DNA of 34,827 bases from Acidobacteriaceae bacterium (GTDB lineage: Bacteria > Acidobacteriota > Terriglobia > Terriglobales > Acidobacteriaceae). Below, piece after piece: positions 21,047-25,608 of this stretch (position 1 is the stretch's first letter; each line of letters opens with the position of its first letter). The translations under genes and the position numbers were made by a program. Location of the stretch: the NCBI GenBank assembly GCA_013361705.1, contig JABFXN010000409.1, positions 1 through 34,827 on the forward strand. The letters are read 5' to 3'. Under the pieces are notes generated by a model. It was not told the origin of the DNA. It searched no databases and was given only the letters and a program-made list of their open reading frames with translations.

Positions 21047-21904
21047 CTAAATTGTCGGGTGGCAGAACCATCCGAGCTCTGATGACAGGGCGAAGGTCTG
21101 CTGTATGGTCGCTACCTGTTCTTCACCAGCAATAATCTCTACAGCTTCGGCGATTGTCTTCCTCTCTTGCAGGGCTTTCAACAATCGGAATTCGCTTTCT
21201 TCCAGCGTGCGGTAGTACACCACATCGTCATAGCGGTGCACGGCAAGGTATCGCTGTTCCGGAGCCATCGCGGGCAAGGTGGTTGTGACGTTTGCCTGTC
21301 GCAATTGCGCCGCTCCGCTGGTTACGGCTTTCTCTTCAGGCTTCTTCACAGCAAGCACAAATTCATCGACAGGATAATCAACGGCAAGCAGCCGCAGATG
21401 CGGTTGTAACGCCAGCGTCGACTCCGGTCCGAGCTTGGCTAGCTCATCCGAAGCAAGCGGCTCGATCTCGGCACCATCGAAGGCCTCGACATAGGCCCAC
21501 TCCAGCCGTGCGATATCCACGGCCAGCCGATGTTGCTCACTGGCGAACTCTGCATGCTGTTCCAGGAACTGCGGCAGATGCGCGCTGAGATCCCGCAGCG
21601 TCCACGAGGTGGAAGGGCGCTGCTTCAGATATGCCAGTACCAGCGCATCGAAGCGCTCGTCTCCCAATAGAGCCTGCAGCGCGGGATAGTCTTCTGAGAC
21701 TGCACCGATCACACGAAACCAGTACTGGCGATTGTAGATCTCCAGCCGCTCGAACGAAGTCAGCTCACTATTAGGACGGATATAGGCAGCAGCGATCTCA
21801 TCCATCGACTCACCTTCGGTTGTCCGCGGCTGCATCGTAAGTTCTGCCGTCAGGGGGCGGCGGACATCCTGTTCCATGCGGCGTTGCAGCTCAAGCAGTG
21901 TCAT
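21047..21904 (-). CDS. DUF2063 (HvfC/BufC-like) MNIO partner protein
   Basis: LLELQRRMEQDVRRPLT...RLEIYNRQYWFRVIGAVSEDYPALQALLGDERFDALVLAYLKQRPSTSWTLRDLSAHLPQFL; 4-bp overlap with the DUF692 gene. Confidence 0.88.
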   Translation of the reverse strand: MTLLELQRRMEQDVRRPLTAELTMQPRTTEGESMDEIAAAYIRPNSELTSFERLEIYNRQYWFRVIGAVSEDYPALQALLGDERFDALVLAYLKQRPSTSWTLRDLSAHLPQFLEQHAEFASEQHRLAVDIARLEWAYVEAFDGAEIEPLASDELAKLGPESTLALQPHLRLLAVDYPVDEFVLAVKKPEEKAVTSGAAQLRQANVTTTLPAMAPEQRYLAVHRYDDVVYYRTLEESEFRLLKALQERKTIAEAVEIIAGEEQVATIQQTFALSSELGWFCHPTI

Positions 21905-22755
21905 GCGACTGCCTCCTCCACATTTGAAGGCTGCAGAAACCGATTCGCTTTCAGCGCCTCGGCGTGTACCTCATCGAAGGTTGGAATATTGTCGTCCCAT
22001 TCAAGCAGCGTCGCCGTTGGCCCGCAGCGCTCGATGGCGCGTGCATACAAACTCCAAACCGGATCGAGTACAGGATGGTCATGCGTATCGAGCGTATAAC
22101 GCTCAAACTGAGAGTGACCGGCGATATGGATCTGTGCCACGCGATCCGCCGGGATGCTGTTCACATACTCCATCGGATCGAACTCGTGGTTCCGCGAGGA
22201 GACGTAGATATTGTTCACATCGAGCAGGATGCCGCAGTCGGCGGCATGCACCACCTCGTTCAGGAACTCCCACTCGGTCATCTGTGATTCGTGAAACTCG
22301 GCGTAGCTGCTGACGTTCTCCACTGCGACGGGAATCTCCAGGAAGTCCTGCACCTGGCGGATGCGCTCCGCAGTCGTCCGCACCGCCTCCCACGTATAAG
22401 GCAGCGGCAGCAGATCGTGCGTGTAGCGGCCATCGACGCTTCCCCAGCAGAGATGATCCGAGAGCCATGGCGTTCCGGTACGACGCACTAGGTCCTTCAA
22501 CCGCCGCAGGTGATCGCGGTTCGGTGCTTGTGCGCTGCCGAAGTACATCGACACGCCATGCTGCACCACGCGGTACTGATCGAGGATCTGGTCAAGAATA
22601 CGTAGGGGTCTGCCGCCATCGACCATGTAGTTCTCTGAGATGATCTCGAACCAGTCGACCACCGGCTTACGCGAGAGGATGTGGTCGTAGTGCGGCACGC
22701 GCAGGCCGATGCCGACACCATAGTCCGTATATCCGTTGAAGGGATTTGCAGGCAT
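21901..22755 (-). CDS. DUF692 / MNIO-family multinuclear non-heme iron oxidative enzyme (BufB-like)
   Basis: GVGIGLRVPHYDHIL, WFEIISENYM, WLSDHLCW, AVENVSSYAEF, GILLDVNNIYVSS, IHIAGHSQFERYTLDTHDHPV, TLLEWDDNIPTFDE. Confidence 0.93.
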   Translation of the reverse strand: MPANPFNGYTDYGVGIGLRVPHYDHILSRKPVVDWFEIISENYMVDGGRPLRILDQILDQYRVVQHGVSMYFGSAQAPNRDHLRRLKDLVRRTGTPWLSDHLCWGSVDGRYTHDLLPLPYTWEAVRTTAERIRQVQDFLEIPVAVENVSSYAEFHESQMTEWEFLNEVVHAADCGILLDVNNIYVSSRNHEFDPMEYVNSIPADRVAQIHIAGHSQFERYTLDTHDHPVLDPVWSLYARAIERCGPTATLLEWDDNIPTFDEVHAEALKANRFLQPSNVEEAVA

Positions 22756-22826: not shown

Positions 22827-23120
22827 TTAGTTCTTTGGCTTGGAGCCGTCGGTGGCGCAGTCGCCCTTGCCCTTGCAGGAGTTCTTGCCGGCATTCTTGC
22901 CGCCGCCCTGACCTTTACAGTCGTTCTTGCCCTTGCAGGAGTGCTTGGGCAACTTCTGGTCGTCCTGTGCCGTCATCGCCACACCTGCTGCGATCGCGGC
23001 GCCGGAGACGCCGGCCTCGTGGCCAGATACAGGCTGTGCATTCAAACGAGCTGTGGTGCCGCTCAGCAGTCCGGCGAAGGCTGCTGCGAGTGCGAGATTG
23101 CTTGCCGTCTTGTGATTCAT
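22827..23120 (-). CDS. Putative MNIO RiPP precursor (bufferin-like), secreted Cys/Lys/Gly-rich 97 aa protein
   Basis: Sec-like N-terminus MNHKTASNLALAAAFAGLLSGTTARLNAQ; core HSCKGKNDCKGQGGGKNAGKNSCKGKGDC; directly upstream of the DUF692 and DUF2063 genes. Confidence 0.82.
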   Translation of the reverse strand: MNHKTASNLALAAAFAGLLSGTTARLNAQPVSGHEAGVSGAAIAAGVAMTAQDDQKLPKHSCKGKNDCKGQGGGKNAGKNSCKGKGDCATDGSKPKN

Positions 23121-23255: not shown

Positions 23256-24026
23256 TCACTGTTTCACATTGAGCGCGACACTCGTCGCACCAAGAATCTC
23301 TTCCTGATGCGGCGTCTGTGCCAGCAGGACCAGGTGCTGCGCGCCGTGAGCAAGATGCAGGCTCGAAGGTAATGCCAGGCGCACACTCTGTTCACCGTCA
23401 TTGCGAACGGTCGTCACGGTCGTCATCAGCCGCGCCACCGAGACATGCGTGAGCGACCGGCCGGAGTTCTCGCCGCGAAGCACACTGGAGCGGTCCGTAT
23501 CGTCAGTGATCACGGCGACGATCTCTACAGGCTTCGCCTTCTCCAGACCCTGCACGGCGAACTTCAGATCGATCGCCTGCGGCTGTACGTTCGCAGAGGA
23601 GATCGTGACCTCTACGGTCTTCTTTGCCGCCTCGTGGTGCAGTGCATCCTGCAGGGCATGGCTGTCGCTGCCAAGCAACTGGATGTGGCCGTTCAATACA
23701 GCCTGCGGCGTATATGGCTGTCCGTCAGCGAGCCGTGCGGCATACTTCTCCTGGCGTGTCGTAAAGGCCTCCGCGGAGTACGGGTCCTTCCATCCCAGGC
23801 TGTTCCAGTAGGTCACATGCTCGCTGATGCCGATCACCAGTTGGCCATCCTGTGTCGTCCGGCCATGGACCTGCTGCAGCAACACATCCGCGGGAGGACA
23901 GCTGGAGCATCCCTCTGAGGTAAACAGCTCCAGCACGGCCACCTTCTGATTCTGGGGTGGGACCGGTGCGGCATCGCCGCGCAATGTGAGGAAAAGGCCG
24001 GCGGCAAGAAAGACTCGAGCATACAT
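23256..24026 (-). CDS. DUF1223 secreted thioredoxin-fold-like protein
   Basis: VAVLELFTSEGCSSCPPADVLLQQV, VIGISEHVTYWNSLGWKDPYSAEAFTTRQEKYA; N-terminal signal peptide. Confidence 0.88.
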   Translation of the reverse strand: MYARVFLAAGLFLTLRGDAAPVPPQNQKVAVLELFTSEGCSSCPPADVLLQQVHGRTTQDGQLVIGISEHVTYWNSLGWKDPYSAEAFTTRQEKYAARLADGQPYTPQAVLNGHIQLLGSDSHALQDALHHEAAKKTVEVTISSANVQPQAIDLKFAVQGLEKAKPVEIVAVITDDTDRSSVLRGENSGRSLTHVSVARLMTTVTTVRNDGEQSVRLALPSSLHLAHGAQHLVLLAQTPHQEEILGATSVALNVKQ

Positions 24027-24040
24027 ACAACACCTCCATC

Positions 24041-24154
24041 AGAGCATTTTCCCTGTTGCTGGGTAGCCCGGAAGAGGAGTGCAGCGGCGTTTTCATTGCG
24101 GAAAACGCCCATAGATGCGCAAGCCCTACTCTACACCTACAGGGAAAATGCTCA
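24041..24154. mobile_element. MITE-like element copy A (114 bp)
   Basis: TIRs GAGCATTTTCCCTGT (24042-24056)/ACAGGGAAAATGCTC (24139-24153); central hairpin GGCGTTTTC-ATTGCG-GAAAACGCC (24086-24109). Confidence 0.65.
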
Positions 24155-24204
24155 GGCGACTATCTGATGCCCGTCGCGGCAGGAACGTTACAAGTCGCAC
24201 CGGC

Positions 24205-24281: not shown

Positions 24282-24743
24282 ATGGAACCGCTACTTCGTC
24301 TCTATCGCAACGCCGCCGAAGCGCTCTCACGGCTGCAGTCTCCCATGCTGCTGGCTGTCCGCCTCTACTGGGGCTATCAGTTCGCGCAGACTGGCTGGGG
24401 CAAACTCCATCATCTTGCGCGCATTACCGACTTCTTTACCAGCCTGGGCATTCCCTTCCCCGGCCTGAATGCGCACTTTGTCGCCAGCCTGGAGTTCGCC
24501 GGCGGCATCCTGCTGATGCTTGGTTTACTGTCTCGTCCGGTCGCTTTGCTTCTCGCCGGCAACATGTTCGTTGCATACTTGACTGCAGACCGCGAAGCGC
24601 TGTTGGCCATCTTCTCGAATCCCGGCAAATTCTACGTTGCCGACCCATATACGTTTCTCTTCGCCTCCATCATGGTGCTGGTCTTCGGCCCAGGATGGTT
24701 CGCGATCGACACTATCATTCGCAGGAGGCTTGCGAGGCAGTAG
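24282..24743 (+). CDS. DoxX-family membrane protein
   Basis: LLAVRLYWGYQFAQTGWGKLHHLARITDFFTSLGIPFPGLNAHFVASLEFAGGILLMLGLLSRP. Confidence 0.92.
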   Translation: MEPLLRLYRNAAEALSRLQSPMLLAVRLYWGYQFAQTGWGKLHHLARITDFFTSLGIPFPGLNAHFVASLEFAGGILLMLGLLSRPVALLLAGNMFVAYLTADREALLAIFSNPGKFYVADPYTFLFASIMVLVFGPGWFAIDTIIRRRLARQ

Positions 24744-24745
24744 CG

Positions 24746-25369
24746 ATGACGCTCCAGGAACAGCAGGGAGAAGCCGAGCTCATCGCCGCCATTCTGGCCG
24801 GCGAGACGCAGCTCTACCATGATCTGATCCGCCCCTATGAGCGGCCGGTTTATCTGCTGGCGCTCTCGTATATGAAGAACGAGACCGATGCCGAAGATGT
24901 TACGCAGGAAGCCTTCCTCAAGGCGTTTCGGCATCTCTCGTCCTTTCGGGCAGACGCCAAGTTCAGTACCTGGCTCATCAGCATTGCCCTGAACGAGGCC
25001 CGCGGCCGCCTTCGCCGCCAGACGGCAGCTCGTACTGAATCCCTGGACAAAGATCCCGACGAAGAAGGAGCGGTTTCGCCTGCCCTGCTGCGCGACTGGC
25101 GTGAGATCCCCTCGGAGGCGGTCGAGCGCGGCGAGATCCGCGATCTGCTGCGAAAAGCCGTCGAAACACTGCCGGAGATCTATCGCGAAGTATTTCTTCT
25201 GCGGGACGTGGAGGAGCTTAATATCAATGAAACCGCGGAGGCCCTGAACATCAGCGTCTCTGCCGTGAAGGTCAGGCTGCACCGCGCGCGGCTGATGTTG
25301 CAGAAGTATCTCGCGCCGCAGTTGAAGTCGGTGACGAAGCCGAAAAGGAGGTGGTTCGCGTGGTCATAG
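24746..25369 (+). CDS. ECF-type RNA polymerase sigma factor
   Basis: sigma2 YLLALSYMKNETDAEDVTQEAFLKAFRHLSSFRADAKFSTWL; sigma4 LPEIYREVFLLRDVEELNINETAEALNISVSAVKVRLHRARLML. Confidence 0.95.
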   Translation: MTLQEQQGEAELIAAILAGETQLYHDLIRPYERPVYLLALSYMKNETDAEDVTQEAFLKAFRHLSSFRADAKFSTWLISIALNEARGRLRRQTAARTESLDKDPDEEGAVSPALLRDWREIPSEAVERGEIRDLLRKAVETLPEIYREVFLLRDVEELNINETAEALNISVSAVKVRLHRARLMLQKYLAPQLKSVTKPKRRWFAWS

Positions 25370-25608
25370 AATGCAAACACGTCTGGACCTACATCTCCGA
25401 TTACCTTGATGGAACACTCTCTGAGGAGATTCGCGTGACTGTCCAGAAGCATCTCGAACACTGCGAGCTCTGCTCGGCGATCCTGGACTCGACGCGCAAT
25501 ATCCTTGTGCTAACGGCGGATGACCGTGTCTTTGAGCTGCCGGTCGGCTTCAGTGAGCGTCTGCATCAGCGGCTGGAAGAAGAGCTTAAGCAGAAGAAGG
25601 GCTCGTGA
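25351..25608 (+). CDS. Zinc-finger anti-sigma factor
   Basis: CKHVWTYISDYLDGTLSEEIRVTVQKHLEHCELC (zf-HC2-like); overlaps the sigma gene; GTG start at 25351, or at 25360 with AAGGAG spacing. Confidence 0.85.
   Translation: MVRVVIECKHVWTYISDYLDGTLSEEIRVTVQKHLEHCELCSAILDSTRNILVLTADDRVFELPVGFSERLHQRLEEELKQKKGS

Follow-up and report, generated by a model that had tools for sequence, protein, structure and literature searches.

Buf2 (BufA2) bufferins are defined by 6 (90%) or 12 conserved cysteines in the sections of a large survey that are cited here (PMC12452194). Thiooxazoles have been demonstrated for Buf1 and for the EGKCG peptides; the same sections describe the chemistry of Buf2 itself as still unsolved, with preliminary data that give Caulobacter Buf2 the same mass loss per Cys and a 305 nm absorbance like that of thiooxazole-bearing Buf1 (PMC12452194). 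Sigma-factor genes are placed there in Buf1 clusters and not in Buf2 clusters (PMC12452194). In Caulobacter, sigma-F controls the DUF2282 bufferin operons and YedY via the motif GTAACC-N16-CGAA (PMC3511200). The ECF/ZAS systems of Neisseria and Haemophilus control a doxX cluster and MsrAB, and the doxX cluster of Haemophilus reportedly includes genes for COG3220 and DUF2063 (PMC2893595, PMC7907618).

Here, we analysed a stretch of 34,827 nucleotides from a soil bacterium of the family Acidobacteriaceae (the window), in which a small precursor gene, bufA, stands before the maturation genes bufB and bufC. The likely product of bufABC is a derived bufferin of Buf2 type with four cysteines, which would be oxidised by BufBC, exported by Sec, bind copper and be driven by an ECF sigma factor. 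The features of the locus are collected in the table.

Table. Features of the bufABC locus and the divergent doxX-ecf-asf operon in the window.
Feature	Position	Strand	Basis or remark
bufC: DUF2063 partner protein	21047..21904	-	PF09836 66.6 bits; 4-base overlap with bufB end
bufB: MNIO maturase (MbnB_TglH_ChrH), EWDD motif	21901..22755	-	NF050167, PF05114
bufA: four-Cys Buf2-type MNIO precursor, 97 aa	22827..23120	-	ORF; NF050166; 28-relative alignment
bufA core KHSCKGKNDCKGQGGGKNAGKNSCKGKGDCATDGSKP	22836..22946	-	C62, C68, C82, C88 = array Cys1, 2, 5, 6
Predicted Sec-type signal region, residues 1-28	23037..23120	-	Probable cleavage past Ala28 (LNA/QP); sequence and alignment
Predicted ECF promoter of bufA, TGTAAC-N18-TCAAA	23209..23237	-	Motif search
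DUF1223 thioredoxin-like protein (CSSC), upstream of bufA	23256..24026	-	PF06764 183 bits
Predicted ECF promoter of doxX-ecf-asf, TGTAAC-N18-TCTAA	24205..24233	+	Motif search
doxX (DoxX; HvfX-like)	24282..24743	+	PF07681 69.3 bits; NF050144 54.9 bits, below cut-off 80
ECF sigma factor	24746..25369	+	TIGR02937 109 bits, cut-off 42.9; PF04542, PF08281
ZAS (zinc-type) anti-sigma factor, asf	25351..25608	+	PF13490 42.2 bits; C-x25-H-x3-C-x2-C

Translated from its ATG start, signal region included, bufA reads MNHKTASNLALAAAFAGLLSGTTARLNAQPVSGHEAGVSGAAIAAGVAMTAQDDQKLPKHSCKGKNDCKGQGGGKNAGKNSCKGKGDCATDGSKPKN, and the purine-rich GAAAGGAA lies immediately 5' of the ATG. The N-terminus has typical n- and h-regions by sequence, A28 is nearly invariant in the precursor alignment, and after the hydrophobic stretch the peptide continues as KHSCKGKNDCKGQGGGKNAGKNSCKGKGDCATDGSKPKN, whose four cysteines form two C-x5-C pairs with 13 residues between the pairs. 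The preliminary description is thus borne out in its outline: the ORF encodes an atypical, Cys-containing MNIO precursor with a Sec-like N-terminus and an intact MNIO gene adjoining, the two pairs are embedded in CKGKxDC motifs, and the repeated EGKCG motif of oxazolin and fontiphorin is absent from the bufA sequence. The NCBIfam BufA2 model NF050166 matched bufA with E=7.6e-6 and 26 bits, which misses its cut-off of 60. Pfam gave nothing above cut-off (a lantibiotic match at E=0.014 was weak and was set aside), and PF10048 (DUF2282, Buf1) did not match at E<=1. The AlphaFold model of the peptide was disordered and of low confidence (mean pLDDT 49), hence uninformative. A second BufA2-like gene was not found in the 5.17-Mb genome, nor an Rfam match within 20.5-26.5 kb of the window.

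For comparison, we drew on one family sample (108 of 301 genomes with a match over the cut-off), the nearest 80 named GTDB loci and a thin phylum sample. The usual precursor at about 150 distinct loci of the same type is a six-Cys Buf2 bufferin, HSCKGKNDCKGQGGCKSSDNGCKGKNSCKGKGGC, with the spacing 5-5-6-5-5. Four-Cys cores occupy the same place before bufB at 37 other distinct BufB loci, 38 including the window, all within one family, the Acidobacteriaceae, in this sample; named carriers are Bryocella elongata, Granulicella mallensis and Edaphobacter lichenicola. The MAFFT alignment and the HMM match (E=7.6e-6) show that the core of the window peptide is homologous to Buf2, and by this sequence relationship it should work alike. 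It is not a formal member of Buf2/BufA2, because its cysteine number is four instead of 6 or 12 and the NCBIfam cut-off is missed. The preliminary description had named membership in a standard, well-described subfamily as the finding that would overturn it; the kinship with Buf2 is there, while the Buf2 cysteine number and the NF050166 cut-off are not reached. The four-Cys form may already stand among the precursors left unclassified in the survey, as far as its cited sections go (PMC12452194).

Three precursors (L057, L167 and L004) were read by hand and added to the set called by script, and an odd precursor in L097/L147 was discarded as an overlapping unrelated ORF. Upstream of bufB in L004 stands an odd precursor, KHSCNGKSGCNGQKSKSDKHSCKSKSGCNGKSSCNGKSAKS, off the usual Buf2 pattern. 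Genome G184 carries both a four-Cys and a six-Cys Buf2 cluster with a separate MNIO each (L070 and L019), and genome G142 a Buf1-like precursor (EKCYGIVKAGQNDCFGVGNSCGG) together with a six-Cys Buf2 cluster (L040 and L084).

The doxX-ecf-asf operon is divergent from bufA. Its anti-sigma factor has the ZAS motif C-x25-H-x3-C-x2-C, found at 85 of the 87 loci possessing the gene, with a spacing equal to that of NMB2145 and RsrA. Gene neighbours across loci were counted by tblastn with the window proteins as queries, and the ECF/ZAS pair was near bufABC at 23/29 four-Cys, 29/63 six-Cys and 0/5 five-Cys loci. The motif TGTAAC-N18-TCWAA precedes bufA and doxX alike, and its only 2 exact matches in the 5.17-Mb genome are both at this locus. 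Among four-Cys loci, 11 of 36 have the perfect motif before bufA, where shuffles expect 0, and 23 of 29 have it before doxX, where they expect 0.05; the spacer across loci is nearly always 18 bases. With at most one mismatch the motif is found ahead of bufA at 30/36 four-Cys and 44/101 six-Cys loci. A genome search allowing one mismatch lost its specificity (23 matches as against 52 for the backward control), so we used the exact two-site result alone. In a family-wide search the pattern with TCTAA matched at many places in other genera that are not near buf loci; across the family the motif is therefore not confined to bufferin genes.

This arrangement suggests that bufA is under the control of a stress sigma factor of its own. 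The ECF factor of the divergent operon would drive bufA expression, and under thiol oxidation or metal stress the ZAS protein should let the factor go, which would turn both units on; the inducer is uncertain because neither peroxide nor diamide nor singlet oxygen triggered a comparable ZAS system in Neisseria meningitidis. The pair might instead be unconnected with bufABC and regulate nothing beyond itself and doxX. It is not nearby at 6/29 four-Cys and 34/63 six-Cys loci, L068 lacks the motif before bufA, and two loci without bufABC (L233 and L234) have the motif ahead of the ECF gene and another unit. However, bufA in the window is also preceded by the motif, again with a spacer of 18 bases, and within the genome the motif is confined to this locus; we regard this alternative as unlikely.

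L233 and L234 belong to congeners (genomes G290 and G232) that lack bufABC yet keep the ECF/ZAS pair and the same motif. Both have one motif site ahead of the ECF gene; the L233 ECF factor is 71% identical to that of the window, and the second site of L233 heads an operon of molybdopterin oxidoreductase and cytochrome b561. In L235 (genome G116, genus g64) the same motif precedes the MsrA and MsrB genes (PMSR, SelR) and also a gene pair for a molybdopterin oxidoreductase and a cytochrome b561. The DUF1223 gene was present at 12/29 four-Cys loci as compared with 1/63 six-Cys loci and also stands beside the ECF gene in the bufABC-free L233, so that, judged by its distribution, its link seems to be with the ECF module and not with bufA as such. 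Between the two promoters, positions 24041-24155 hold a palindromic element of about 112 bp, REP- or MITE-like, with the ends GAGCATTTTCCCTG and CAGGGAAAATGCTC and at least 40 further copies in the genome at 89-96% identity. In L068, which lacks the bufA motif, an element of similar build precedes bufA.

The maturation enzymes point to what may happen to the peptide. The intact bufB gene lies directly downstream of bufA, after a gap of about 70 bases, scores 355.9 bits against the bufferin-maturase model NF050167 (cut-off 310) and 364.9 bits against PF05114, and encodes the sole MNIO found in the genome. BufC matches the HvfC model NF050145 with E=5.9e-14, under the cut-off of that model. The order precursor-MNIO-DUF2063 with a bufferin-type MNIO is thus present in the window, and BufB and the DUF2063 partner stand directly behind bufA at 29/29 four-Cys and 63/63 six-Cys loci with enough flank. 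The substrate-side motif of the window BufB is LLEWDDN, in which an Asp adjoins the catalytic Asp; 37 of 37 four-Cys BufBs scored and 99 of 102 six-Cys BufBs have this Asp, whereas the Lys-Cys (EGKCG) enzymes have Phe after the catalytic Asp, as in 3BWW (ERDF). We assign the position to Asp249-Phe250 of FonB by our own reading of the motif. Asp in place of Phe is the reported mark of the Cys-Lys (BufA2) MNIOs, with a modelled contact to the substrate Lys (PMC13097082), and, judged by its motif, the EWDD of BufB is the substrate signature of a Cys-Lys captophorin MNIO.

We propose that the bufA product is made as a precursor with a Sec signal and that BufB with BufC would oxidise its Cys-Lys cysteines, probably to 5-thiooxazoles with the loss of 4 H each, before Sec export. 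The mature peptide would then be exported to the periplasm, where it would bind copper and perhaps other soft metals; by analogy, periplasmic copper binding or buffering via Cys-derived thiooxazoles is the most likely function. In the window peptide Lys follows Cys1, Cys2 and Cys5 and Ala follows Cys6, so our best guess is three modified cysteines, with the fourth (C88) uncertain. On the alternative that BufB leaves the four cysteines unoxidised, the exported peptide would be a dithiol/disulfide redox partner or a simple thiolate chelator. The C-x5-C pairs could form disulfides, thiol chemistry in the envelope is suggested by the adjoining DoxX and by the thioredoxin-like DUF1223 protein with its CSSC, and Buf1 retains one unmodified disulfide according to the cited part of the survey (PMC12452194). 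However, the constancy of BufB and DUF2063 behind bufA, the Cys-Lys substrate residue kept in BufB and the Cys-modified nature of the tested products of its enzyme group make this quite improbable.

The origin of the four-Cys core follows from its relatives. Six-, five-, four- and three-Cys precursors all occupy the same place before bufB, with spacings of 5-13-5 in the window, 5-13-5, 5-15-5 and 5-10-5 in four-Cys relatives, 5-5-8-5 in five-Cys relatives, which have lost Cys4, and 5-5, a single module, in three-Cys relatives. A MAFFT alignment of 29 precursors (the window and 28 relatives, six-Cys forms included) has 20 invariant columns, and in it the cysteines retained by four-Cys forms are positions 1, 2, 5 and 6. 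These four- and five-Cys forms have invariably lost either both Cys3 and Cys4 or just Cys4, and all of them keep Cys1, 2, 5 and 6. NF050166 scores are 32-42 bits for six-Cys Acidobacteriaceae relatives, 26 for five-Cys, 19-24 for the other four-Cys and 18 for three-Cys forms. By alignment, the window peptide is a six-Cys array in which Cys3 is replaced by Gly and Cys4 is lost, and it would have evolved from such an array with Cys1-Cys2 and Cys5-Cys6 kept. In L214, from another family of the same phylum, a 10-Cys precursor joins a full six-Cys module to a module with exactly this Cys3/Cys4 loss. Where the signal ends, two Buf2 precursors (L213 and L217) show a Cys like that of a lipobox (GMLTGCSAE, GIMAGCSSN), and they bear additional CGGKDGC / CKGPEGC tails.

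The preliminary description had taken the two CKGKxDC motifs for a duplication, and a recent duplication that gave two identical modification or metal sites would be the corresponding explanation. The heptads are indeed alike, and each pair could still serve as a site of its own. Aligned with six-Cys relatives, however, the heptads are non-equivalent: in the array, CKGKNDC holds Cys1-Cys2 and CKGKGDC holds Cys5-Cys6. The counterpart of CKGKGDC is the CKGxGGC element (Cys2-Cys3 type) and not the CKGKNxC element, and many relatives have GGC or GAC where it has its second Asp (GDC). Because the heptads correspond to positions 1-2 and 5-6 within a longer array, we read them as the remnant of a lost middle and not as a new duplication; their likeness is best traced, from the alignment, to an old two-module array. 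The four-Cys forms are also nested in a tree that consists mostly of six-Cys forms; the latter reach Verrucomicrobiota as well, and a recent duplication is very unlikely.

The tree comprised 153 distinct BufB proteins, 38 of them with a four-Cys precursor. Thirty of the 38 form one group, whose support is 92 once two long rows are left out of the tree; 4 lie in another part of the tree, and the 4 whose linker is shortest fall in two more places. The four-Cys state needs 4 label changes, at least 2 of which are forced by strongly supported branches. In AU tests, a single origin of all four-Cys forms was rejected at the borderline (p=0.049) and a single origin of the forms with 13- and 15-residue linkers was not (p=0.44), so we do not claim repeated loss for the latter alone. 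Judged by the tree as a whole, Cys3/Cys4 loss probably happened more than once.

Over 25 unique four-Cys cores of 37 codons pN/pS was 0.13, indicating purifying selection, and the cores of three congeners (L023, L068 and L053) differ from the window by 3, 4 and 6 synonymous codons and by 0, 0 and 1 amino-acid changes. With a conserved core and genus-level differences that are almost all synonymous, bufA is, by these comparisons, a functioning gene. That it is a decaying precursor heading for loss, as the disappearance of 2 of 6 cysteines and the absence of bufABC altogether from several congeners could suggest, is extremely improbable in view of this selection, the four-Cys cores at 38 distinct loci, the conserved promoter and the intact enzymes.

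Relatives with 3, 4, 5, 6, 10 and 12 cysteines make up a natural deletion series for asking which Buf2 cysteines are modified and how many metal ions each peptide holds, and the four-Cys form is a simple member of this series that is conserved across many species. More tentatively, Cys3-linker-Cys4 could be a separable unit that was dropped repeatedly, giving a different metal ratio or choice, with a private two-promoter stress regulon at this locus. New here is the divergent doxX-ECF-ZAS operon that shares a promoter motif with bufA; ECF/ZAS pairs next to Buf2 clusters extend the sigma link, which the cited sections of the survey confine to Buf1, and the promoter is testable.

Among the closest known systems is Buf2 (Buf_6/12Cys; NF050166 BufA2; the Cys-Lys captophorin group), with which the locus shares a precursor of predicted Sec type, CKGK/CKGQ motifs, the A-B-C order, a BufB above the family cut-off, the EWDD substrate-side residue, the DUF2063 partner and doxX. 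It differs in having four cysteines as compared to 6 or 12, with Cys3 and Cys4 missing, in scoring 26 bits where the cut-off is 60, though its six-Cys Acidobacteriaceae relatives reach just 32-42, and in having an ECF/ZAS module beside a Buf2-type cluster. With the Caulobacter Buf1 (DUF2282) system under sigma-F/NrsF it shares four cysteines, an MNIO with DUF2063 and DoxX, and ECF control, which is predicted in the window, and the sigma-F motif GTAACC-N16-CGAA resembles the -35 element of the window motif (PMC3511200). In contrast to Buf1, its core and spacing are different and there is no DUF2282 match, and its anti-sigma factor is a small ZAS protein, whereas that of Caulobacter is the membrane protein NrsF. 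The EGKCG systems (oxazolins, fontiphorin and gonophorin; Neisseria SigE-MseR and Haemophilus RpoE2-HrsE) likewise combine doxX, precursor, MNIO and DUF2063 with an ECF/ZAS pair, and the Neisseria -10 element TCTAA matches that of the window doxX motif, while the window peptide is without EGKCG repeats and BufB has Asp where 3BWW has Phe beside the catalytic Asp. Since the circuit matches those of Caulobacter, Neisseria and Haemophilus, the ECF wiring is of a known kind.
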